From Rathayibacter sp. VKM Ac-2879 (GTDB lineage Bacteria > Actinomycetota > Actinomycetes > Actinomycetales > Microbacteriaceae): 64,000 nucleotides of DNA. The position numbers and the translations under genes are program-made. This document shows positions 32,522-45,516 of the stretch, piece by piece; the first letter of the stretch is position 1, and every line of letters begins with the position of its first letter. The DNA is taken from positions 620,001 through 684,000 of the forward strand of contig NZ_JADKSO010000002.1 in the NCBI RefSeq assembly GCF_015351245.1. The letters run 5' to 3'. The notes under the pieces were generated by a model. It was not told the DNA's origin and did no database searches. It saw only the letters and a program-made list of their open reading frames with translations.

Positions 32522-32668
32522 TCAGCTCTCGGCGTCCCGCAGCACGAGGTCACACGCCGCGCGCTCGTCGTCCCGCTCGACTCCGTACTCGGCGACTGGC
32601 ACAGGCTCGAGCGGAGGGATGCGCACTCCGTCGAGGGAGGACTGTCGCGCCAGGTCGGATGCACTCAC
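32522..32668 (-). CDS. possible 48-residue small protein
   Basis: A GTG at 32668 opens a 48-codon frame ([20 protein letters not shown]...) rich in G/C at third positions, as expected for a coding frame here, ending 2 bp past the brkB-type stop. There is no clear ribosome site and no known family. The remainder of 32669-32820 contains a possible TACGCT -10 at 32761 for the downstream permease. Confidence 0.3.
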
Positions 32669-32820
32669 GGAGCCGGACCAGGCGCCCGGCGGGGGCCTCC
32701 CTGAGAAGACTCACGTCATCTGTCGTGCGACACGGCCGCGTCTTCGCGACGAGCCACCCTTACGCTGGCGGGCATGCCGTCGCGCCCGCCACGGCTTCGC
32801 CCCGCGAGGAGGAGTCCACC

Positions 32821-34380
32821 GTGACCCGGAGCCACGCCGACGAGACCGGTCCGACCGGACAGACCACGCCGGTCCAGCCGGACTACTCGAACGAGCAGGA
32901 GGGCTACCACAAGGGCCTGAAACCCCGGCAGCTCCAGATGATCGCCATCGGAGGCGCCATCGGCACCGGACTGTTCTTGGGCGCGGGCGGGCGGTTGGCC
33001 TCGGCGGGTCCCTCGCTGATCATCGTGTACGCGGTCTGCGGAGTCTTCGCCTACCTGATCCTTCGCGCTCTCGGCGAGCTCGTGCTGCACAGGCCGAGCT
33101 CCGGCTCCTTCATCTCCTACGCCCGCGAGTTCCTCGGCGAGAAGGCGGCCTTCGTGGCCGGCTGGATGTACTTCCTGAACTGGGCGATGACCTCGATCGC
33201 CGATGTCACCGCCGTCGCCCTGTACGTGAGGTACTGGTCCCTCTTCTCGGCCGTGCCGCAATGGCTCCTCGCCCTGATCGCGCTCGTGGTCGTCCTCTCG
33301 CTCAACCTCGTCTCGGTGAAGGTGTTCGGCGAGCTCGAGTTCTGGTTCGCGCTCATCAAGGTCACCGCCCTTGTCGTGTTCCTCGTGATCGGCATCGTCG
33401 TCCTGGCCGCCGGCTGGCCGCTGCACTCGGGTGGAGTCGCGGTCGACCCGGGCATCAGCCTGTGGAACGACAACGGCGGCCTGTTCCCCGGCGGGCTCAT
33501 CGCGAGCGTGCTGGTCGTGCAGGGTGTGGTCTTCGCCTACTCCGGTGTCGAGCTGGTCGGAACCGCGGCGGGTGAGACGGCCGAGCCAGCCACGGTGATC
33601 CCGCGCGCGATCAACTCGGTGATCCTCCGGATCGCCGTGTTCTACGTCGGCTCGGTGCTGCTGCTGGCGCTCGTGCTGCCCTACACGGCGTACTCGAAGG
33701 CCGAGAGCCCCTTCGTCACCTTCTTCTCGGCCCTCGGCGACGGCTCGTCCGGCGAGATCGCCGGCTCGATCATGAACTTCGTCGTGCTGACCGCGGCGCT
33801 CTCGAGCATCAACGCCGGCCTCTACTCGACGGGCCGGATCCTCCGCTCCATGGCGCTCAACGGCTCCGCTCCCCGCTTCACGGGCAAAATGAACGCGCAG
33901 GGTGTGCCGTTCGGAGGCATCCTGCTCACGGCGAGCATCACTCTCGTCGGCATCGTGCTCAACCTCTTCGTGCCCGCGCAGGCGTTCGAGATCGTCCTCA
34001 ACGTCTCCGCCCTGGGCATCGTCACCGGCTGGGGCATGATCGTGCTCTGCCAGATGCAGCTGCAGCGCTGGGCGTCGCAAGGCCGACTGCAGCGTCCCTC
34101 GTTCCGGATGCCCGGCGCGCCCGTCACCTCGTGGCTCACGCTCGCGTTCCTCGTGATCGTCGTCGTCCTGATCGCGGTCGACTTCCCCACCGGTACCTGG
34201 ACGGTCGGCATCGTCGCCGTGATCGGGGTTCCCGCCCTCGTGATCGGCTGGCGCATCGCCCGTCCGCGGATCCTCGAGATCGCCGCCGCTCGCGAGGGCT
34301 TCACGGGGGCGTTTCCCGTCGTCGCAGCGCGAGCGGCGACCGAGGCCAAACGCGAGGACAACGACCGCAGAAAGCCCTAG
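32821..34380 (+). CDS. ansP: amino acid permease, AnsP-like (L-asparagine)
   Basis: This APC-family proton symporter has 519 residues from a GTG at 32821 with GAGGAGGAG upstream. The core starts [20 protein letters not shown] (about 29), then [20 protein letters not shown] near 95, [19 protein letters not shown] near 118 and [20 protein letters not shown] near 250. These segments resemble enterobacterial AnsP closely, so asparagine is the most likely substrate. Twelve spans are predicted. Its TAG stop lies inside the CCTAGC target duplication of the IS481-type cassette that follows. Confidence 0.82.
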
Positions 34381-34381
34381 C
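34376..34381 (+). repeat. target duplication CCTAGC, left copy
   Basis: A six-base direct repeat, identical to 35962-35967, flanks the cassette. It fits the NCTAGN target of IS481. It contains the TAG stop codon of ansP. Confidence 0.75.
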
Positions 34382-34434
34382 TGTTGCAGGGCAGGAGGGT
34401 GCTGACGCGCGCACTCGAGGGGCAGAGGGCAGGA

Positions 34435-35010
34435 TTACTGAAGTATGCGGTCGACGAGTTCGTTAACGGCGGCGTCGACAGACAATCCCGTGTCGAGTGG
34501 CGCCGTGAGGTGGTCGAGCATCAATCCGTCGATGGCGTAGTGGAACAGGGCGATCTCGGTTCGTCCTCCGGGCAGGCCAGAAGCGTCGTTGAAGGCGACA
34601 TCCTCCTGAAATGCTCGCTGTCGCCACGTTCCGAGCGTCGCGGCAATTGCGGGGCGTCGAGCAGCCTCTAGCCGCAGCTCGAAGAGGGCAAGCGACACAT
34701 GCGGGTCAGCGCTGAGTCGTCGCACGACGTCTCGCAGGTAGTCGGCAAAGAGAGCCCGGTCGGCAGACCGAGCGCCACGGGAAGGACCGATCTCGGGATC
34801 GGGTGCGAGTCGCTCTCCAATGCGGTCAACGAGTGCGGAGATCAGATCGTCGCGGGTCGGGAAGTAATTCGACGCGGTACCCCGTGGCGTGCCGGCTGCG
34901 GCATCGACAGCTCGGTGGGTGAGCCCGCGGGCTCCTTCCCGAGCGAGCACGCGGATCCCGGCGTCGGCGAGAGCGGAGCGTCGTTCGTCGTTGCGGGCCA
35001 TGTCGCCCAT
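34435..35010 (-). CDS. TetR/AcrR-family transcriptional regulator
   Basis: The 191-residue protein has an N-terminal helix-turn-helix (ADAGIRVLAREGARGLTHRA then GTPRGTASNYFPTRDDLI, about residues 15-60) and a ligand-binding C-terminal domain resembling TetR_C members (ALFHYAIDGLMLDHLTAPLD). The ATG at 35010 and the ATG at 35001 are the likeliest starts; TTG at 35019 is less so. It is divergent from the reductase gene at 35073 over a palindromic intergenic region, implying that it represses that gene and itself. It lies inside the IS481-type cassette. The effector is unknown. Confidence 0.88.
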   Translation of the reverse strand: MGDMARNDERRSALADAGIRVLAREGARGLTHRAVDAAAGTPRGTASNYFPTRDDLISALVDRIGERLAPDPEIGPSRGARSADRALFADYLRDVVRRLSADPHVSLALFELRLEAARRPAIAATLGTWRQRAFQEDVAFNDASGLPGGRTEIALFHYAIDGLMLDHLTAPLDTGLSVDAAVNELVDRILQ

Positions 35011-35030
35011 GCTAGCCAAACCACGACTGC

Positions 35031-35059
35031 TGTTGTAGTTTAACTACGACAAATGTCGT
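35031..35059. promoter_or_regulatory. double palindrome, probable TetR operator
   Basis: Two adjoining palindromes lie between the divergent genes. GTAGTT-T-AACTAC occupies 35035-35047 and ACGACA-AA-TGTCGT occupies 35046-35059, overlapping by two bases. Their position 14 bp before the reductase start and 21 bp before the TetR start fits autorepression. Confidence 0.6.
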
Positions 35060-35072
35060 GATTGGAGACATC

Positions 35073-35648
35073 ATGCGAGAACTCATCTATTACGTCGCCG
35101 TCAGCATCGACGGTTATATCGCCGACCCGACGGGCAGGTTCGATGCGTTCCTGGCCGAAGGCGATCATGCGTCGGTGGTGTTCGGCGAGTATGCAGATGC
35201 GCTACCAGCGCATGCACATGCAGCGCTGGGCACCGAACCGCCAAGAACACGATTCGACACGGTGATCATGGGGTGGAAGACACTCACACCCGCACTCGAT
35301 ATCGGCATCACCAGCCCCTACCCTCACCTGCGTCAGATCGTCGCGAGCCGCCAGCCACGCGACGTCGACCCGGCGATCATCCTCACTGACGATCCGCGCG
35401 CCACGGTCCGCAACCTGAAGCGAGAAGACGGCCTGGACGTCTGGCTCTGCGGCGGTGGCGAGCTTGCAGGCACGCTTCTGCCCGAGATCGATCGCCTCGT
35501 CATCAAACGCAATCCCGTCGTCTTCGGCTCTGGCATCTCCCTGTTCGGCGGTGCCCCCTACGAGCCGTCCGCGTTCGCTCTGACCGAAACCCGCTCCTTC
35601 ACGTCGGGTGTCGTGATCGAGGAGTACGTTGCCAGTGACAGAGCATGA
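35073..35648 (+). CDS. dihydrofolate reductase-like (RibD C-terminal domain) protein
   Basis: This 191-residue protein (MRELIYYVAVSIDGYIADPT) has the RibD_C/DHFR fold: the N-terminal substrate loop VSIDGYIAD, VIMGWKTLTPALDI near 70 and the NADPH-binding loop VWLCGGGELAGTLLPEIDRL near 130. Members reduce pterins, pyrimidines or drugs; the substrate is not known. I chose the ATG at 35073 because GGAGA lies five bases before it. Being divergent from TetR and inside a cassette suggests an inducible detoxification role (inference). Confidence 0.85.
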   Translation: MRELIYYVAVSIDGYIADPTGRFDAFLAEGDHASVVFGEYADALPAHAHAALGTEPPRTRFDTVIMGWKTLTPALDIGITSPYPHLRQIVASRQPRDVDPAIILTDDPRATVRNLKREDGLDVWLCGGGELAGTLLPEIDRLVIKRNPVVFGSGISLFGGAPYEPSAFALTETRSFTSGVVIEEYVASDRA

Positions 35649-35685
35649 GTACCGTGATCGTGCACAGGCCATCTCGCGAAGGCCA

Positions 35686-35966
35686 CCGCACGCCAACGCT
35701 CCGTTGACGCTCGAAGGTCGTCGCCGGCTGATCGAGCGGTGTCGCACACGTCCGATCGCTCATGTCGCCGCCGAGAGGGGTATCTCCCGCGCGACCGCGC
35801 CCAAGTGGGTCAACCGTTACCGGAAGTTCGGAGCGAGAACGCGCCGACCGTCTCCTGCTCTGGACCTGCACGACGACTACCACCGCCCCCTGGCGCGCAC
35901 GAGGGGCAACCACCCGCGACGGCAGCGCCCGCCTCTGTCGACAACGTCCTGGCCTCATACACCTAG
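35686..35966 (+). pseudogene. IS481-family transposase remnant, catalytic domain deleted
   Basis: Residues NAPLTLEGRRRLIERCRTRP and ISRATAPKWVNRYRKFG match the N-terminal helix-turn-helix of IS481 transposases. The frame then falls into the C-terminal tail in another phase, ending QPPATAAPASVDNVLASYT-stop at 35966. The DDE catalytic region is absent. The TAG stop is provided by the CCTAGC target duplication. A start codon is not evident, so the gene is dead. Confidence 0.8.
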
Positions 35967-35967
35967 C
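35962..35967 (+). repeat. target duplication CCTAGC, right copy
   Basis: Second copy of the 6-bp repeat at 34376-34381. It lies three bases before the stop of the convergent reductase gene. Confidence 0.75.
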
Positions 35968-38312: not shown

Positions 38313-38387
38313 TGGTGGGCGATACTGGGATCGAACCAGTGACCTCTTCCGTGTCAGGGAAGCGCGCTACCGCTGCGCCAATCGCCC
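38313..38387 (-). tRNA. tRNA-Val(GAC), CCA encoded
   Basis: The 75-nt cloverleaf starts GGGCGATTGGCGCAGC and ends ATCGCCCACCA. The anticodon stem is CTTCC/GGAAG with loop CTGACAC (anticodon GAC). The T arm GGTTCGATCC is present. Confidence 0.95.
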
Positions 38388-38426
38388 GCTGCTCCGTAAA
38401 GGAGCGCCTCGTTCGGTGAACGATCG

Positions 38427-38497
38427 AGGTGGATACGGGATTCGAACCCGTGTATACGGCTTTGCAGGCCGCTGCCTCGCCTCTCGGCCAATCCACC
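38427..38497 (-). tRNA. tRNA-Cys(GCA)
   Basis: 71 nt, with acceptor GGTGGAT/ATCCACC, anticodon loop CTGCAAA (anticodon GCA), T arm GGGTTCGAATCCC and discriminator U, as expected for cysteine. The CCA is not encoded. Confidence 0.94.
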
Positions 38498-38592
38498 GTG
38501 TACGGGATTCGGTGTCGGCGGCCCGAAGGCCGACCAGGTGGGAGGTATCCGAGGATACGTCCCGATGACGACGGTCCGAGAACCGGCGTTCG

Positions 38593-38664
38593 AGCGGATG
38601 ACGAGATTCGAACTCGCGACCCTCACCTTGGCAAGGTGATGCGCTACCGCTGCGCCACATCCGC
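38593..38664 (-). tRNA. tRNA-Gly(GCC)
   Basis: 72 nt, with acceptor GCGGATG/CATCCGC, anticodon loop TTGCCAA (GCC), T arm GAGTTCGAATCTC and discriminator U. The CCA is not encoded. It is the first gene of the minus-strand tRNA cluster. Confidence 0.94.
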
Positions 38665-38728
38665 ATGTAGGTCGTGCTGGTCTTGCTGTCTCGCCTCGGC
38701 GCTTTCGCTCCCCGGCTCGACCTAGAAG

Positions 38729-38758
38729 ACTGTATCCGACGGCCGTACGAGATTCCAA
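38729..38758 (-). promoter_or_regulatory. promoter of the Gly-Cys-Val tRNA cluster
   Basis: On the minus strand TTGGAA (38758-38753), an 18-base spacer and TACAGT (38734-38729) lie about 65 bases upstream of tRNA-Gly. Confidence 0.55.
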
Positions 38759-38885
38759 ATCGAGCGGAGGCGGATGTCGTCACCGAACGCTCGTCCCCCG
38801 CCCTTCCGCGCGGCGCAGACTCCTCCCCTGCCGTTCACCCGGGCGTGGCGCGCACGAATGGTCGGTGCGCACCCCGAGCATCCGC

Positions 38886-38891
38886 TACGAT
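38886..38891 (+). promoter_or_regulatory. -10 of the forward tRNA-Val gene
   Basis: TACGAT lies 44 bases before the mature 5' end of tRNA-Val(CAC). I see no clear -35. The rest of 38665-38935 shows no feature beyond the two divergent promoters. Confidence 0.45.
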
Positions 38892-38935
38892 CGTCTCTCG
38901 GGTCGTCCCGAACGTCCCCCCTGGAGCATCAGCCC

Positions 38936-39011
38936 GGGCGATTGGCGCAGTTGGTAGCGCGCTTCCTTCACACGGAAGAGGTCATCGGTTCGAGTCCGGT
39001 ATCGCCCACCA
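38936..39011 (+). tRNA. tRNA-Val(CAC), CCA encoded
   Basis: The 76-nt cloverleaf starts GGGCGATTGGCGCAGTT and ends ATCGCCCACCA. The anticodon stem CTTCC/GGAAG has loop TTCACAC (CAC). It is nearly identical to tRNA-Val(GAC) 550 bp away in inverted orientation. Confidence 0.95.
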
Positions 39012-40471: not shown

Positions 40472-40580
40472 GGGTCACTCCATGCGGTCGCGGGCGGTTC
40501 GCGTCGATCCTTCCACGCGCACGCCCAGCTCGCGGGCGGCAGGATGACCCCATGACGGAGACGAGCACGGTGACGACACT

Positions 40581-41042
40581 ATGGCGGTGACGAGCGCGGG
40601 AATCCTGTTGCACCGGGAGGTCGACGGGCGGCTCCATGTGTTCCTCGGGCGGATGGGTGGTCCGCTGTGGACTCGGCGTCCGCGCGCGTGGTCGATCCCG
40701 AAAGGCATGTACGGGCCGGAGGAGACACCGTTCGACGCCGCGAGGCGGGAGTTCGAGGAGGAGATCGGCGTTCCGGCTCCCGACGTCGACTACACCCCGC
40801 TCGGCGCGTTCCGGCAGAACTCGCGCAAGATCGTGACCGTGTTCGCGGGCCCCGGCGACGATCAGACGCGATTTGTCTCGAGCAATGCTTTCGAGCTCGA
40901 ATGGCCTCGCGGTTCAGGCGTCATGCATTCCTACTCCGAGATCGAGACGGCCAGCTGGATTCCCCTCGAGGAGGCACGCGAGCTGCTGGTCGCCGGGCAG
41001 GTCCCCGCGCTCGACGCCTTGGCCGCGCTGCTCGCCTCCTAG
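40581..41042 (+). CDS. NUDIX hydrolase
   Basis: The 153-residue protein starts MAVTSAGILLHREVDGRL and contains a NUDIX box, GMYGPEETPFDAARREFEEE with the following IG, at about 42-64, which carries the metal-binding glutamates. Members hydrolyse nucleoside-diphosphate-linked compounds; the substrate is not known. Its TAG stop lies inside the CCTAGG duplication that bounds the downstream IS481-type cassette. Confidence 0.9.
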   Translation: MAVTSAGILLHREVDGRLHVFLGRMGGPLWTRRPRAWSIPKGMYGPEETPFDAARREFEEEIGVPAPDVDYTPLGAFRQNSRKIVTVFAGPGDDQTRFVSSNAFELEWPRGSGVMHSYSEIETASWIPLEEARELLVAGQVPALDALAALLAS

Positions 41043-41043
41043 G
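41038..41043 (+). repeat. target duplication CCTAGG, left copy
   Basis: Six-base direct repeat identical to 43194-43199, of NCTAGN type. It contains the NUDIX TAG stop. Confidence 0.8.
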
Positions 41044-41887
41044 TGTACTGACCGGGGACGTTGATCAATCGCGAGAAAGGCGGCCGGTTTCCGCAAGCTG
41101 AATGCGGGCGGTGGTGGTTGTAGTAATGCAGTCACTCGCCCCGTTCTCCGCGGCACTGAGCCTCGGAGGTGTAGCAACGGGGGTATGCCCAGCCGTCCCC
41201 CAGGGTGCGGTGAAACCGTTCGATCTTGCCGTCGGTCTGAGGTCGGTAGGGGCGGGTGCGCTTGTGTGTGATGCTGAGCTCCGCGCAGGTGTCTCGCCAA
41301 AGATGTGCCGTTGTCGGAGAGGACACGCTCGACGGTGACGCCGCGCTGGTTGAACCACTCGACAGCTCTGACGAGGACGGCGGTGACGCCGGTCTCGTTG
41401 TCGTGTATCTCGGCGTAGGCGACGCGTGAGTGGTCGTCGATCACCGTATGAACGTGGGCCTTGCCCATGAGTGGGCTGCTGTATTTGTTACGAGGCTTGT
41501 CCGGTGTTGCCGCGCGGTTCCTCTCGCCCTGTGGTCGGTCGACGTGCGACAGGCGGTTCAGGTGGACGGTGGTGAGGATGCGATGAGCTGTCGACGGCGC
41601 GATGCCCAGTCGGTAGGCGAGCTGCACGGACCCTCGCGCAATCGGAGGCGCAGAGTGATGCAACGCCATGTGGTCTTCGCATCGGTTTTGTTCGGTGAGC
41701 GGTGAGGTCGCGAGGAGCGGTCCTGCATCGACTCGCTATTCCGGTAGCGGCCGGCCCAACATTTGACCGTGGGCCAAGAGACCTGGAAGCGGGCGGCGAC
41801 CTCGCTGATCGGCCAGGTCTCGTCAACGACGAGTCGGGCGACTTTTAGTCGGCGGTGCGGGGTGAGTGCGGCGTCGGAGTGGGACAC
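41044..41887 (-). pseudogene. IS481-family transposase relic with deletion and frameshifts
   Basis: The relic starts with SDAALTPHRRLKVARLVVDE and RYRNSESMQDRSSRPHRSPN (helix-turn-helix, from 41887). It shifts frame near 41670, giving AYRLGIAPSTAHRILTTVHL and TPDKPRNKYSSPLMGKAHVH, then VTVERVLSDNGT. It shifts again near 41330 to HKRTRPYRPQTDGKIERFHR and once more to the tail SRLINVPGQYT. About 40 residues that normally include the first catalytic aspartate are missing between LSHVDRPQGER and NRAATPDK. The second Asp (LSDNG) and the Glu (GKIERF) survive. The TAG stop is in the target repeat. Confidence 0.85.
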
Positions 41888-41928
41888 AGGGGCTCTATTT
41901 CTTCAGTTCTCGGGAACGGCAACGGGTG

Positions 41929-42597
41929 TCAGATGTGCGCGCGGTCTGGCACTTCAAGGGCAAGGAGGAGCGCGACGATGCCGAGTAAAACTCCCGTGGT
42001 GCGCCGCTGCCAGATCGCCCATTGGGGGCGAGGGGCGAGGAAGCTGGCGAGAGACCCCGCAGCGACCACGATGAGCGCATTCACGGTAAGGCTGACGACG
42101 ATCTGAAGCAGTCCGAGCGTGACGCCCTGCACGATGGGGTGACCGCGCTGAGGATCGATGAAGTGCGGGATGACGGTCAGGTACATGATCGCGACTTTTG
42201 GGTTGAGCAGGTTGGTGACCAGCCCCATCCGGAAGAGACGACTGGTGCTATCACGGGGCAGGTCACGGATCTCGAAGACACCTCGCCCGTCGGGACGCAG
42301 CGCTTGCCAGGCCAAATAGGCAAGGTAGGCGACGCCTGCAGTCTTGAGCCCAATAAACAGCCACGGAACGGCCACGAATACAACAGCCAGGCCGAGGTTG
42401 GCCATCAGCATGTACACAACGAATCCCAAACCCGTCCCCGCCAAGGAGACCAGGCCGGCACGGCGACCTTGACTAATACTGCGTGACGCGAGGTAGATCA
42501 TGTTCGGACCCGGGGTGAGAACCATCGTCAAGGCGGTGAGAATCATGGCGACGGCTGCCATCGCCGAGATGGGTGGAATCAAGGAGGTAGGAGGCAC
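41929..42597 (-). CDS. LysE-family amino acid exporter
   Basis: The 222-residue protein (from GTG at 42597) has six predicted spans and the LysE/RhtB signature ALTMVLTPGPNMIYLASRS near 21-40, followed by GTGLGFVVYMLMANLGLAV near 54. The C-terminal spans include PKVAIMYLTVIPHFI near 135. LysE members export basic or small neutral amino acids or homoserine lactones; the substrate is unknown. The 25-bp gap to the divergent CGNR gene must contain both promoters. Upstream GGGAG is very close to the GTG, so the start is somewhat uncertain. The gene is in cassette 2. Confidence 0.85.
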   Translation of the reverse strand: MPPTSLIPPISAMAAVAMILTALTMVLTPGPNMIYLASRSISQGRRAGLVSLAGTGLGFVVYMLMANLGLAVVFVAVPWLFIGLKTAGVAYLAYLAWQALRPDGRGVFEIRDLPRDSTSRLFRMGLVTNLLNPKVAIMYLTVIPHFIDPQRGHPIVQGVTLGLLQIVVSLTVNALIVVAAGSLASFLAPRPQWAIWQRRTTGVLLGIVALLLALEVPDRAHI

Positions 42598-42612
42598 GCT
42601 CCCACCATGATG

Positions 42613-42618
42613 TAATAC
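42613..42618 (+). promoter_or_regulatory. -10 of leaderless CGNR transcript
   Basis: TAATAC ends four bases before the ATG at 42623. The gap to the LysE start is only 25 bp, so the CGNR mRNA probably lacks a leader. Confidence 0.45.
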
Positions 42619-42622
42619 CTTT

Positions 42623-43147
42623 ATGCATCTCAACCCTTACGGGGAGTACGCGGTCCTCCTCGCACAGTCACTCGCGAACGACTGGCCCGGCGACCGGACA
42701 CGGGTCATCGAACGAACTCGAGAATTTGGCATGACGATGCCCTTCCCTGAACGGCCGGACGATTACACCCGCTGCCGTGTGGTGCTGGACGGCTGGTTGA
42801 CAGTCGTCGACGCTGCGACGCCGGAGGATCGGGCGGCCATTCTTAACGAGCACATGGCCAGCGCTTCGGCCTACCCGCGCTTGACCGACCACAACGGCGA
42901 GGGTTGGCACCTGCACTACCGCGACGTCGATAACGACCTTCAGCGCGTCCTGCGAGCTGTCTTCATGGTCGGCACCGCTCTTCACTTGACCACTCGAGGC
43001 ATGTCGCGCCTCGGGCGTTGCGCCGCGGAGCCGTGCACGAACGTCGTCGTAGACGTGTCCCGCAATGGCACCCAGCGGTACTGCTCACCTCGGTGCGGCA
43101 GCAGGGATGCCGTTAGGCGCCACCGAGCCCGACTGCAACGCTCCTGA
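42623..43147 (+). CDS. CGNR zinc-finger protein (ABATE type)
   Basis: The 174-residue protein has an all-helical N-terminal region (MHLNPYGEYAVLLAQSLAND) like ABATE domains and a C-terminal CGNR zinc finger: RCAAEPCTNVVVDVS, then TQRYCSPRCGSRDAVRRHRA, with four cysteines. The family is thought to be transcriptional regulators. Here the usual CGNR reads CGSR. Divergent arrangement with the exporter over 25 bp suggests that it controls LysE (inference). It carries lower-GC codons than the host genes, consistent with horizontal acquisition. Confidence 0.85.
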   Translation: MHLNPYGEYAVLLAQSLANDWPGDRTRVIERTREFGMTMPFPERPDDYTRCRVVLDGWLTVVDAATPEDRAAILNEHMASASAYPRLTDHNGEGWHLHYRDVDNDLQRVLRAVFMVGTALHLTTRGMSRLGRCAAEPCTNVVVDVSRNGTQRYCSPRCGSRDAVRRHRARLQRS

Positions 43148-43152
43148 TCTGG

Positions 43153-43189
43153 CTGACCGGTCCCCTTTCTAACTAACGTGTCCGGTCAG
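43153..43189 (+). terminator. hairpin formed from the cassette 2 right end
   Basis: CTGACCGG (43153-43160) and CCGGTCAG (43182-43189) give an 8-bp stem with a 21-base loop just after the CGNR stop. The right arm is the core of the terminal inverted repeat, so the end doubles as a possible terminator. Confidence 0.45.
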
Positions 43190-43193
43190 CACA

Positions 43194-43199
43194 CCTAGG
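43194..43199 (+). repeat. target duplication CCTAGG, right copy
   Basis: Second copy of the 6-bp repeat at 41038-41043, 12 bp from the stop of the convergent PAP2/kinase gene. Confidence 0.8.
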
Positions 43200-43211
43200 G
43201 GAGGCACGTCG

Positions 43212-44795
43212 TCAGTCCGCCGAGGCGTAGACGCGCAGGCCTCGCGGCACGATCCGCACCGTGGCCTCGTCGAATCCACCGTTCCCCTCGCGCGCGTCCG
43301 GGTCGAACCGTTCGGTCTCGCCGTCGTGCGCCCATTCGGGATCCGCTCCGCGGGCGCGGCGCGTGCCCACCGTCATCTCGGGGGTCGAGAACGCCTCGAC
43401 GACAGGTGTCCGCCACCCTGGCACGCGACGAAGGAGCGGAGTCGCGGTGCGGCCGAGGACGAGCGCGAACGCCCCGCGAGTGCGCGGTGTCCTGCCGGAG
43501 TGCAGGATCCGCACGTCGAGGCGTCCGTCGTCGAGGCGACGGCGCGCGAGCGGAGTCGCGGTCTCAGGGTGACCGCGGTTCACCCCCACGAAGTACGACC
43601 AGACACGATCGGTCCGTCCCTCGCGGCGCAGCTCGAACGGGTCGGTCCGACGCACGACCGTCAGGGCGGCGATCACCGCCGCCAACGGCTTGCCGATCCG
43701 TTTCTCGCGCTTCTCGCGCGCCGCGACGAACTCGGGGTACACACCGATCGACACCGTGTTGAGCACGGTGATCGGCTCGCCTCCCACCGTGACGACCTCG
43801 GCGACGTCCACATCCCGACGCTCGCCGACCGACGCTGCGTGGAGTGCGTCCTCGACGGTGAGCAGCCCGAGCGCCTTGGCGAAGTGGTTCATCGTTCCTC
43901 CCGGCAGAACGAGAAGGGTCATCCCCTCCGCGCGTGCGAGCGCCGCGCCGACCGCCACGGTGCCGTCGCCGCCGTAGACGCCCAGCACCGTCGACGTGCT
44001 GGAGCGCGAGCGGACGACCTCGGCCAGCTCCTCCCCTTCGGCGAGGCGGTGAACGTGCGCCCGGGGATACCGGGCGCGCAGGAGCGGCTCCGGGTCGGGC
44101 CGGTGCGAGTCACGCCCCGCGTGGGGATTGAGCACGACGAGCAGCTCCGAGCCGTCGCCGAGCGGACGGCGATCCACAGGCGGTAGAGCAGCTCGCTCGG
44201 AGACGGGGATGCGCCGGGGATGCGCCGGCAGCGCGACCCGCCCGACCACGGCGACAGCCGCTCCGAGCGCGGCGCCACCGACGACGTCCGAGAGCCAGTG
44301 CACGCCCGTGTGCAGCCGCGAGAAGGCGACCGCGGCGGCAAGAGGCGCGAGGGCTGCGCCGGCGCGAGGCGACTCGAGTGCCACTCCGGTCGCGAAGGCG
44401 GCGGCGCTCGCCGCGTGACCGGAGGGGAAGGAGGGCGAGGTGGGGAGGTGGGCGAGACGGCGACCGATGGGCACGTCGACGACGAGCGGACGAACTCCTC
44501 CGAACAGCTGCTTCCCCACGAGGTTCGCCGCCGCGCTGGCGATGGCGAGGGACGCCGTGCCCCGCACCGCCTCCCGCGGACGCCCCGCGAGGACCAGCAG
44601 GACACCGAGCCCCATCCAGAGCACACCGTGGTCGGCGGCCCGCGACAGCGAGACGAGCGCGCCGTCGACGAGCGTGGAGGGGTGTCGCGCGTTCAGCCTC
44701 CGCGCCACCCGGGCATCGGCGCGGCGCACGACCCGGGGAACCACGAAGAAGCGGCGGAGCAGAACGATCGGGGGTCGGTTTCCGCGCAGCAGCAT
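43212..44795 (-). CDS. PAP2 phosphatase-diacylglycerol kinase fusion protein
   Basis: The 527-residue protein joins two lipid enzymes. The N-terminal PAP2 domain has multiple membrane spans and all three signatures: KQLFGGVRP near 99 (KX6RP), PSGHAA near 125 and SRLHTGVHWLSD near 155. The C-terminal diacylglycerol kinase catalytic domain begins ELLVVLNPHAGRD near 218 and has GVYGGDGTVAVG near 272 and LLVLPGGTMNHFAKALGL near 297. It may both dephosphorylate and phosphorylate lipid or undecaprenyl substrates. The ATG at 44795 removes a 46-codon antisense extension. Confidence 0.88.
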   Translation of the reverse strand: MLLRGNRPPIVLLRRFFVVPRVVRRADARVARRLNARHPSTLVDGALVSLSRAADHGVLWMGLGVLLVLAGRPREAVRGTASLAIASAAANLVGKQLFGGVRPLVVDVPIGRRLAHLPTSPSFPSGHAASAAAFATGVALESPRAGAALAPLAAAVAFSRLHTGVHWLSDVVGGAALGAAVAVVGRVALPAHPRRIPVSERAALPPVDRRPLGDGSELLVVLNPHAGRDSHRPDPEPLLRARYPRAHVHRLAEGEELAEVVRSRSSTSTVLGVYGGDGTVAVGAALARAEGMTLLVLPGGTMNHFAKALGLLTVEDALHAASVGERRDVDVAEVVTVGGEPITVLNTVSIGVYPEFVAAREKREKRIGKPLAAVIAALTVVRRTDPFELRREGRTDRVWSYFVGVNRGHPETATPLARRRLDDGRLDVRILHSGRTPRTRGAFALVLGRTATPLLRRVPGWRTPVVEAFSTPEMTVGTRRARGADPEWAHDGETERFDPDAREGNGGFDEATVRIVPRGLRVYASAD

Positions 44796-44838
44796 GCACC
44801 CCAGCGTAGGAGGCGGCACCTGGGACGGGTGCGCCGCT

Positions 44839-45516
44839 CTAGACCTCGCCGAACCCCGACTCGACCAGCTTGGCGAGGCGCTCGACCGCCTCCTCGGCCT
44901 GCGGGCCCGTCGCCGACAGGACGACGTCATCACCGCGATCCAGCCCCAGGGACATCACTCCGAGGAGACTGGTCGCGTCCTTGCCATTCGCATCGATCCG
45001 TGCGTCGAAGGTCGTCGCGAGAGTGACGAAGTCGGCCGCAGGCCGGGCATGCAGCCCGTTCGGATTCACGAGGGTCGCCGTGCGCCGAACGGCCGGTCCG
45101 CGGACGGGCGCCGACACGTCCTGGGCCTTTGCGGAGGCGCCGCGCGCCGATTCGGCAGCGGACACCACCTCGTCGAGCCCCGCTCCCGTCCCGGCCGTCA
45201 CCGCCGCGGCGACCGCGCCCTCGACGAGGGGGGCGTCGACGAGGCGCACGCGCTCGCGCGCCGCCTCCTCGAGGAACTCGATCGCCGTCTCGGCTGTCAT
45301 GATCGCGGAGCCGAGATCGCAGAGGACGACGACGCCCTCGCCCGAGTCGGCCTCCGCCAACGCCGCGCTGATGCGGTCGAAGCTCGTGCCGATCCCCCCG
45401 TCGTCCGTTCCTCCCGCCGCCACCAGAGTGACCGAGGCGGCCATCTGTTCGGCCAGTTCGACGAGTCCCTCCGCGAGCCGCGCGCTGTGCGAGACGAAGA
45501 CGAGCCCGACGCTCAC
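44839..45516 (-). CDS. dhaM: dihydroxyacetone kinase phosphotransfer subunit DhaM with HPr domain
   Basis: DhaM relays phosphate from the PTS to the DhaL-bound nucleotide. The GTG at 45516 overlaps the dhaL stop. The 225-residue protein has the EIIA-Man-like domain (VGLVFVSHSARLAEGLVELA, phosphorylated His near 10) and a C-terminal HPr domain with TLVNPNGLHARPAADFVTLA near 150, the phosphorylated His lying in GLHARP. No PTS EI domain is fused. The linker is Ala-rich (SAAESARGASAKAQDVSAP). Confidence 0.92.
   Translation of the reverse strand: MSVGLVFVSHSARLAEGLVELAEQMAASVTLVAAGGTDDGGIGTSFDRISAALAEADSGEGVVVLCDLGSAIMTAETAIEFLEEAARERVRLVDAPLVEGAVAAAVTAGTGAGLDEVVSAAESARGASAKAQDVSAPVRGPAVRRTATLVNPNGLHARPAADFVTLATTFDARIDANGKDATSLLGVMSLGLDRGDDVVLSATGPQAEEAVERLAKLVESGFGEV

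Follow-up and report, generated by a model that had tools for sequence, protein, structure and literature searches.

The 64,000-nucleotide stretch of Rathayibacter sp. VKM Ac-2879 analysed here (contig NZ_JADKSO010000002.1, positions 620,001 to 684,000; the window, to which all coordinates refer) contains a 2150-bp unit at 41044-43193, bounded by 6-bp CCTAGG target repeats. The order across the unit is: CCTAGG; an end starting TGTACTGACCGG; the remnant of an IS481-family transposase; a LysE exporter gene; a CGNR regulator gene; an end starting TGTGCTGACCGG in inward reading; and the second CCTAGG. Very probably this is a copy of an IS481-family transposon with cargo genes, a kind of element known as 'tIS', that has decayed and is no longer autonomous.

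The target-site duplications are read directly from the sequence at 41038-41043 and 43194-43199, and agree with those proposed in a first-pass annotation made from the sequence alone. Immediately inside them lie the left terminal inverted repeat TGTACTGACCGGGGACGTT (41044-41062, forward strand) and the right terminal inverted repeat TGTGCTGACCGGACACGTT (43175-43193, reverse strand), each identified by sequence reading, pattern search and inverted-repeat search. By hand count, 18 of the inner 25 bases next to each repeat match as inverted ends, the figure given in that annotation, and an inverted-repeat search of 40500-43700 likewise ranked the unit ends first of 79 pairs (25 nt, 88%, with the palindromic CCTAGG counted in). 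With zero mismatches, TGTNCTGACCGG occurs in two places only in the window, which are the two unit ends. This uniqueness, together with the top rank in the inverted-repeat search, rules out a chance match of the ends.

Both ends retain TGT.CTGACCGG..ACGTT, and both target repeats are perfect; the end type is also written as TGTRCTGACCGG ends or paired TGTRCTGMCCGGNNACGTT ends. The terminal inverted repeats start with TGT, an IS481-family trait seen in the printed ends of ISArsp12 and TnRErm46. The duplication has the 6-bp NCTAGN form printed for TnRErm46, which is not claimed for all IS481 members. Two passenger genes lie within these ends, and the evidence that the window copy itself has moved consists of its repeats.

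The transposase remnant (41042-41887, reverse strand) was recognised with Pfam, NCBIfam and alignment. Its pieces match LZ_Tnp_IS481 at 27.6 bits (cut-off 22.2) and rve at 31.8 bits, just below the cut-off of 32.6; NF033577 scores 61.9 bits on the first 109-aa piece, under a whole-protein cut-off of 224. Aligned to the uninterrupted annotated IS481 transposases of loci L001 and L002, the remnant falls into three pieces of 59-80% identity; its frame shifts near residues 88 and 242, a stop interrupts it near residue 298, and about 39 residues are missing, the Asp of HVDVKK among them. The SDNG and KIERFHR motifs are still present; the motif residues of all three we take to be the catalytic residues of the enzyme. 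As had been claimed, the remnant is recognisably of IS481 type, the gene is multiply frameshifted, and the segment holding the first catalytic Asp is lost. A complete DDE triad in one open frame, which autonomy requires, is absent. Because the first Asp block is deleted and the frames are broken, the unit is a non-autonomous derivative and not an active insertion sequence.

The remainder of the unit holds, as the first-pass annotation had described, two intact divergent genes; both have open frames and both are recognised by Pfam. The LysE/RhtB-type exporter gene (41929-42597, reverse strand; open frame, Pfam and NCBIfam) has a PF01810 domain (E 1.4e-32) at residues 36-226 of 234, thereby spanning the length of the protein. 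One revision applies at the LysE start: the frame extends to a TTG at 42633, and a GTG at 42597 is the more likely start, leaving 25 bases between the LysE and CGNR starts. The regulator gene (42623-43147, forward strand; open frame and Pfam) ends in a C-terminal zinc finger (zf-CGNR, 3.5e-16). Compared with three pairs from Agreia, the ratio of nonsynonymous to synonymous substitution rates is 0.09-0.19 for the two genes over six comparisons; both are under purifying selection. No relative of the window CGNR was found among viral contigs.

Insertion site and relatives of the exporter-regulator pair

The insertion site is the stop codon of a host NUDIX gene (40581-41042, forward strand; open frame and Pfam), whose relative in L105 has the identical gene end CTCCTAG. 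On the right, the unit is followed by a host gene with PAP2 and diacylglycerol-kinase (DAGK) domains (43212-44933, reverse strand; open frame, Pfam and relatives). The left CTAG serves as a stop twice: its TAG closes the NUDIX gene on the forward strand and the transposase remnant on the opposite strand.

The left flank was searched in 15 genomes from a single genus-level group, which belongs to the same family as Agreia, and was matched in all 15, weakly and partially in G214 and G215. Eight of these (G053, G178, G123, G206, G209, G211, G212 and G213) carry the NUDIX and PAP2/DAGK genes on one fetched stretch, and none of the eight has LysE or CGNR there. In G216 the NUDIX gene closes in frame with the same CTCCTAG, unoccupied. 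A search for the whole unit in the 15 genomes gave partial matches in three and a complete unit in none; one of the three, G217, has a CGNR relative at 67%, and on other contigs also some separate pieces of IS481 type. No second copy close to identity was seen in the genomes searched. Because all eight relatives with both flanks lack the pair, the LysE-CGNR pair is judged, from these comparisons, to be an arrival at the NUDIX site. Inheritance of the pair at the site is rejected as far as the sampled relatives go. The first-pass annotation had named the pair at this same locus, in lineages without target repeats or transposase remnants, as the observation that would overturn its reading; the eight genomes offer no such case.

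The same cargo occurs elsewhere. Scanning genome contigs with CGNR as the protein query returned 261 relatives, and a divergent LysE (62-83% identity) adjoins CGNR in 12 of the best 80, which were kept; at a thirteenth locus, L046, a distant LysE (30%) stands beside CGNR. Two complete LysE-CGNR units have the same end type: L013 in Arthrobacter sp. ISL-28 (repeats TCTAGG) and L014 in Enemella evansiae (repeats GCTAGC), 79.8% identical to each other over 2256 bp. They share with the window unit the cargo pair, its order and orientation, the end type and the target; they differ in having transposases of another clade, other junctions and only 71-72% DNA identity to the window. At L011 and L015 a right end with CTAG is visible. 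The transposase is broken or truncated, with differing defects, in all five IS-borne LysE-CGNR units (the window, L011, L013, L014 and L015). The transposases of L013 and L014 have frame breaks and all three motifs, and the single frame change in L014 could be a sequencing error.

Among themselves, the three Agreia pairs show 80-83% identity. At one of them, L016 in Agreia pratensis, a degenerate IS481 right end lies 3' of CGNR; it scores 51, where the highest of 226 control stretches reaches 24. In the same test 2 of the 226 controls did as well as L008, a borderline result, and 25 did as well as L007, which is not significant. The Agreia pairs had been considered as shell-free donors, an idea dropped since the remnant makes at least L016 a decayed unit. 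The genome of Agreia sp. Leaf210 contains both L007 and L008, diverged LysE-CGNR pairs that lie on separate contigs and are 82% identical; no further similarity was found between their flanks in about 5-6 kb on each side.

Transposase shells, cargo exchange and decay

In a tree of 21 transposase sequences, the window transposase pairs with that of L163 (100/100) within a well-supported group of eight that includes ISArsp12, and those of L013 and L014 fall in the other group of 13. A single transposase group of window, L013 and L014 is rejected (approximately unbiased (AU) test, p 2.5e-76). The window cargo is nearest the Agreia pairs (81-82% DNA identity); the cargo of L011, L013, L014 and L015 forms its own group (100/99), 71-73% from the window, values that for L013 and L014 include transposase DNA. 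The cargo junctions differ on both sides between the two shells. Judged by these trees and junctions, the pair sits in two different IS481 transposase lineages.

Whether this reflects one capture or two is closely balanced. The chance that IS481 captured the pair once, and that the two present shells arose by later recombination between elements, falls a little short of even. The LysE tree does unite the two IS-borne groups, with support of only 80/71, and exchange between cargo and shell is observed elsewhere (below); the strongly separated transposase clades speak against a single capture, as do the differing junctions, and two captures explain clades and junctions as simply. An AU test on the cargo (p 0.00045) counted Agreia as non-IS and does not settle one capture versus two.

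The closest relative of the window shell shows the opposite loss. L163 (in G439, from the family of Arthrobacter sp. ISL-28) is a 1170-bp unit with repeats CCTAGT and an open 328-aa transposase frame, the closest to the window among 20 compared (85%). Near its right end only the 3' part of CGNR remains; over the 192 bases that cover this remnant and the end itself, identity to the window is 85%. L163 thus resembles the window in its transposase and right part (83-85%), and differs from it in having an open transposase frame and a cargo deleted except for the CGNR 3' part. A reading of L163 as a cargo-free insertion sequence was rejected once the CGNR stub was found inside it; it is a cargo-deletion derivative. 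On comparison of the two units, decay goes both ways: the window has kept cargo and lost its transposase, and L163 has kept its transposase and a CGNR stub.

The frequency of this end type was assessed with the pattern CTAGNTGTRCTGMCCGGNNACGTT, allowing at most one mismatch, with the reversed pattern as control. The pattern is present in 39 of 295 genomes sampled from the family of Arthrobacter sp. ISL-28, 38 of 197 in that of Enemella evansiae and 17 of 299 in that of Agreia sp. Leaf210; the control gave 0 among the matches listed. A paired-end unit was counted where two adjacent ends of the same contig faced each other at a distance of no more than 7 kb, with identical repeats checked only in the units read. 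There are 50 such units: 42 of at least 1.8 kb, seven of 1.0-1.3 kb and one of 603 bp. At a 15 kb limit there are 52, 44 of them at least 1.8 kb.

The first of these families supplied 20 units for closer reading, including one of 13 kb; outside the 20 are G003 (the same as L013), G247 (1.1 kb) and a second G383 unit of over 13 kb. In at least 13 of the 20, the list of open reading frames shows a transposase of at least 318 residues without interruption. The contrast with the broken transposases of the LysE-CGNR units is only suggestive, as the two sets were retrieved by different routes. Regulator and effector genes, identified with Pfam or through their closeness to a scanned unit, occur in 13 of the 20: NmrA with WYL (L162); TetR with a DoxX-like protein below the DoxX_2 cut-off (L164, L165, L168); SDR with TetR (L169, L175); RibD_C next to an unrecognised frame, plus an SDR/TetR half resembling L175 (L170, the 13 kb unit); HxlR with MDMPI (L171); WYL with an alpha/beta hydrolase (L172); AraC with glyoxalase (L173); a zinc alcohol dehydrogenase with AraC/DJ-1 (L178); ArsR with a permease (L179, the same as L002); and FAD_binding_3 with a weak TetR match (L181). 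The other seven do not fit or are unclear: the CGNR stub of L163; DUF2268 with no regulator seen (L166, L167); MerR with no IS481 transposase found (L174); no family (L176); MFS with a UvrA-like protein (L177); and a WYL regulator with no effector seen (L180). L001, which is not among the 20, carries Rrf2 and NAD-binding cargo.

Two comparisons among these units bear on movement and exchange. L164 and L165 occupy two sites in the same genome, flanked by CCTAGA and GCTAGC repeats, and are 99.93% identical over 2864 bp; a related cargo-bearing unit has therefore moved recently. L164 and L175 are 97.2% identical over their first 1730 bases, up to the transposase start, and show no similarity beyond, whereas L164 and L168 have both cargo and transposase in common at 85%. 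These alignments show one clear cargo/shell exchange, with its joint at the transposase start.

Taken in aggregate, the anatomy of the window unit shows that an ancestor laid out as left end, transposase, LysE, CGNR and right end entered CTAG at the NUDIX stop codon and duplicated NCTAGN. The comparison with relatives shows that the transposase decayed and that LysE and CGNR were held by purifying selection. The window copy most likely decayed after its formation, because units with the same ends are mostly cargo-sized and at least 13 of 20 have an uninterrupted transposase. Of the earlier proposal that an exporter/regulator module had been packaged in an IS481 shell, a CTAG-inserted IS481 element with the pair and a dead transposase stands; packaging into a shell already dead is improbable. 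The module that remains most probably serves to export an amino acid or a related metabolite, and CGNR would be its local switch, probably autoregulating, at the 25-base divergent start region.

Several observations weigh against parts of this account. The NCBIfam exporter models match the window LysE below their cut-offs, the ABATE match in CGNR is weak (E 0.0019, 19.2 bits, below the cut-off of 24.4), and the exporter substrate and regulator role are family-level guesses. The pair is not whole everywhere, LysE of L008 ending early at 207 codons. L013 and L014 have 6 bases, not the 41 of the window, between transposase start and LysE stop. At the insertion site, 68 poorly alignable bases separate the two flanking stop codons in G206, and a small gene of 109-115 aa lies between the same flanks in G053, G178 and G123. 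The alignment with relatives lacking the unit, which the first-pass annotation had envisaged, gave absence of the pair, but neither alignment (G053, G178, G123, G206) nor site reading (G216, G210) gave a clean empty site.

As the unit's own transposase cannot work, the claim that it would need one in trans was a fair inference; mobilisation in trans is a possibility only. The ends are still well formed, such that a related IS481 transposase could in principle move the unit. It is nevertheless unlikely that the unit is an element still moved by an intact IS481 relative in the same cell, in the manner of a cargo-bearing miniature inverted-repeat transposable element. Such an element would account for the conserved ends and perfect target repeats, and an uninterrupted related transposase does exist elsewhere (L163); the absence of any copy from the 15 genomes, the mutual divergence of the Agreia pairs and the different transposase defects of the five IS-borne units, which fit separate decay in place, all argue the other way. 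That the pair is an ordinary resident module with an IS481 remnant beside it by chance is highly improbable: seven of the 12 pair-bearing loci do lack a clear IS481 shell (L007, L008, L009, L010, L012, L017 and L031, the last examined for transposase remnants only in the right-end remnant test set), but in the window the matching ends and target repeats enclose both genes, the layout recurs in L013 and L014 at different sites and with different repeats, the pair is missing from this site in the host genus, and the seemingly shell-free L016 keeps its degenerate right end.

The decayed cargo-bearing transposon favoured here also landed at a stop codon, as did many of its relatives. CTAG is rare, at 0.27 per kb across 69 loci. 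Of 157 CTAG sites, 61 end an open reading frame of at least 100 aa; by a looser open-frame rule, 95 of 201 do. Of the 26 units tested, 20 are flanked by identical repeats; 15 of this subset lie at an open-frame end by the looser rule, against a background of 47% (binomial p ~0.011; 0.008 without two repeated elements). Because this background is already high, stop-codon landing is mostly explained by the target itself; survival of harmless insertions may add the remainder.

Plain insertion sequences are usually thought to carry a transposase only, and this end type is found mostly on units large enough for genes. The chances appear evenly divided that one end-defined IS481 branch of the Actinomycetota is a cassette vehicle: one usually carrying a short regulator-effector pair, swapped at a fixed joint beside the transposase start; with LysE-CGNR taken into two shells; with the pair left resident after shell decay; and with target choice directing it to stop codons, where an insertion is cheap. 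The related copies display the steps: complete units (L164, L172, L173 and others), cargo only (the window), transposase only (L163), and the pair with one degenerate end (Agreia pratensis). With these steps in view, it can be tested how modules of regulator plus exporter spread in Actinomycetota and become resident genes with neither a plasmid nor a composite transposon involved.

The unit is a new, decayed case of a kind already in print, the cargo-bearing IS481 units. ISArsp12 is an IS481-family element on plasmid pA2H1 of Arthrobacter sp. ANT_H2, reported as 86% identical to ISPfr21 (PMC6305408). Its ends TGTACTGACCGGACACGTTG are nearly the same as those of the window unit, and it has CTAG-centred 6-bp repeats, a transposase on one side and a two-gene cargo on the other; unlike the window unit, it carries a permease and an ArsR regulator and its transposase is uninterrupted. 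TnRErm46, an IS481-driven unit transposon of Rhodococcus equi with ISRe46, likewise has NCTAGN repeats, and the target CTAG gives TAG stops to the transposase and to some target genes; it differs in being 6.9 kb long and active, with other ends and a resistance gene as cargo (PMC6794481). For Corynebacterium striatum, PMC8304765 gives IS5564 (IS481 family) with Tn5564 and an efflux gene cargo in a table, and names IS1513, not IS5564, with Tn5564 in its text. IS5564-type transposases are about 65% identical to that of ISArsp12. In the open-licence PMC literature searched, no printed IS481 unit with LysE-CGNR was found, nor any account of the two shells, reciprocal decay, cargo exchange or start-site conservation. 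The single paper there that names both a CGNR zinc finger and LysE is a culture study of Bordetella.

The start region and the neighbouring cassette

Sequence comparison identifies a conserved start-site element at 42608-42640 (forward strand), comprising an extended -10-like TGATGTAAT, the ATG, and codons 4-6 AAC CCT TAC. These three CGNR codons are identical in 81 of 81 sequences (the window and 80 loci); CCT makes up 21 of 536 (4%) of the other Pro codons in CGNR genes. As retrieval used back-translated peptide patterns including MHLNPYGE, described as degenerate, a bias in the codon count is not fully excludable; L125, found through DNA similarity, has identical letters at codons 4-6. An extended -10-like TGNTGTAAT stands six bases ahead of the CGNR start codon in nearly all sequences, and the distant relatives L004 and L006 have only the upstream part of the element in common. 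The position of the -10-like element near the start codon suggests a leaderless CGNR transcript, and the start region would then be a putative promoter and operator of the gene.

At 30 of the 68 CGNR loci without a close LysE (within L018-L086), a small divergent open reading frame of about 70-100 aa has a signature like HEHAW.TES.H.TSEG...YVRC. This count was made by eye on a divergent frame picked mechanically, another frame being picked at the remaining loci. This CGNR group may originally have been partnered by the small frame.

Another decayed IS481 unit, the first of the two in the window, lies at 34376-35967, with repeats CCTAGC. It contains a TetR gene (34435-35019, reverse strand) and a RibD_C gene (35058-35648, forward strand), and of its transposase only a weak helix-turn-helix match remains, at about 35689-35823. 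The CTAG on the left of this unit serves as stop codon to the amino-acid permease gene at 32659-34380 (AA_permease, 5.6e-109). By eye, its ends (TGTTGC.../TGTATG...) look nearer than those of the second unit to the TnRErm46 type; on this account insertions from two different IS481 branches appear to have struck stop codons that are 6.7 kb apart. Between the two cassettes, at 38313-39011, lie four tRNA genes (Val, Cys, Gly and Val).

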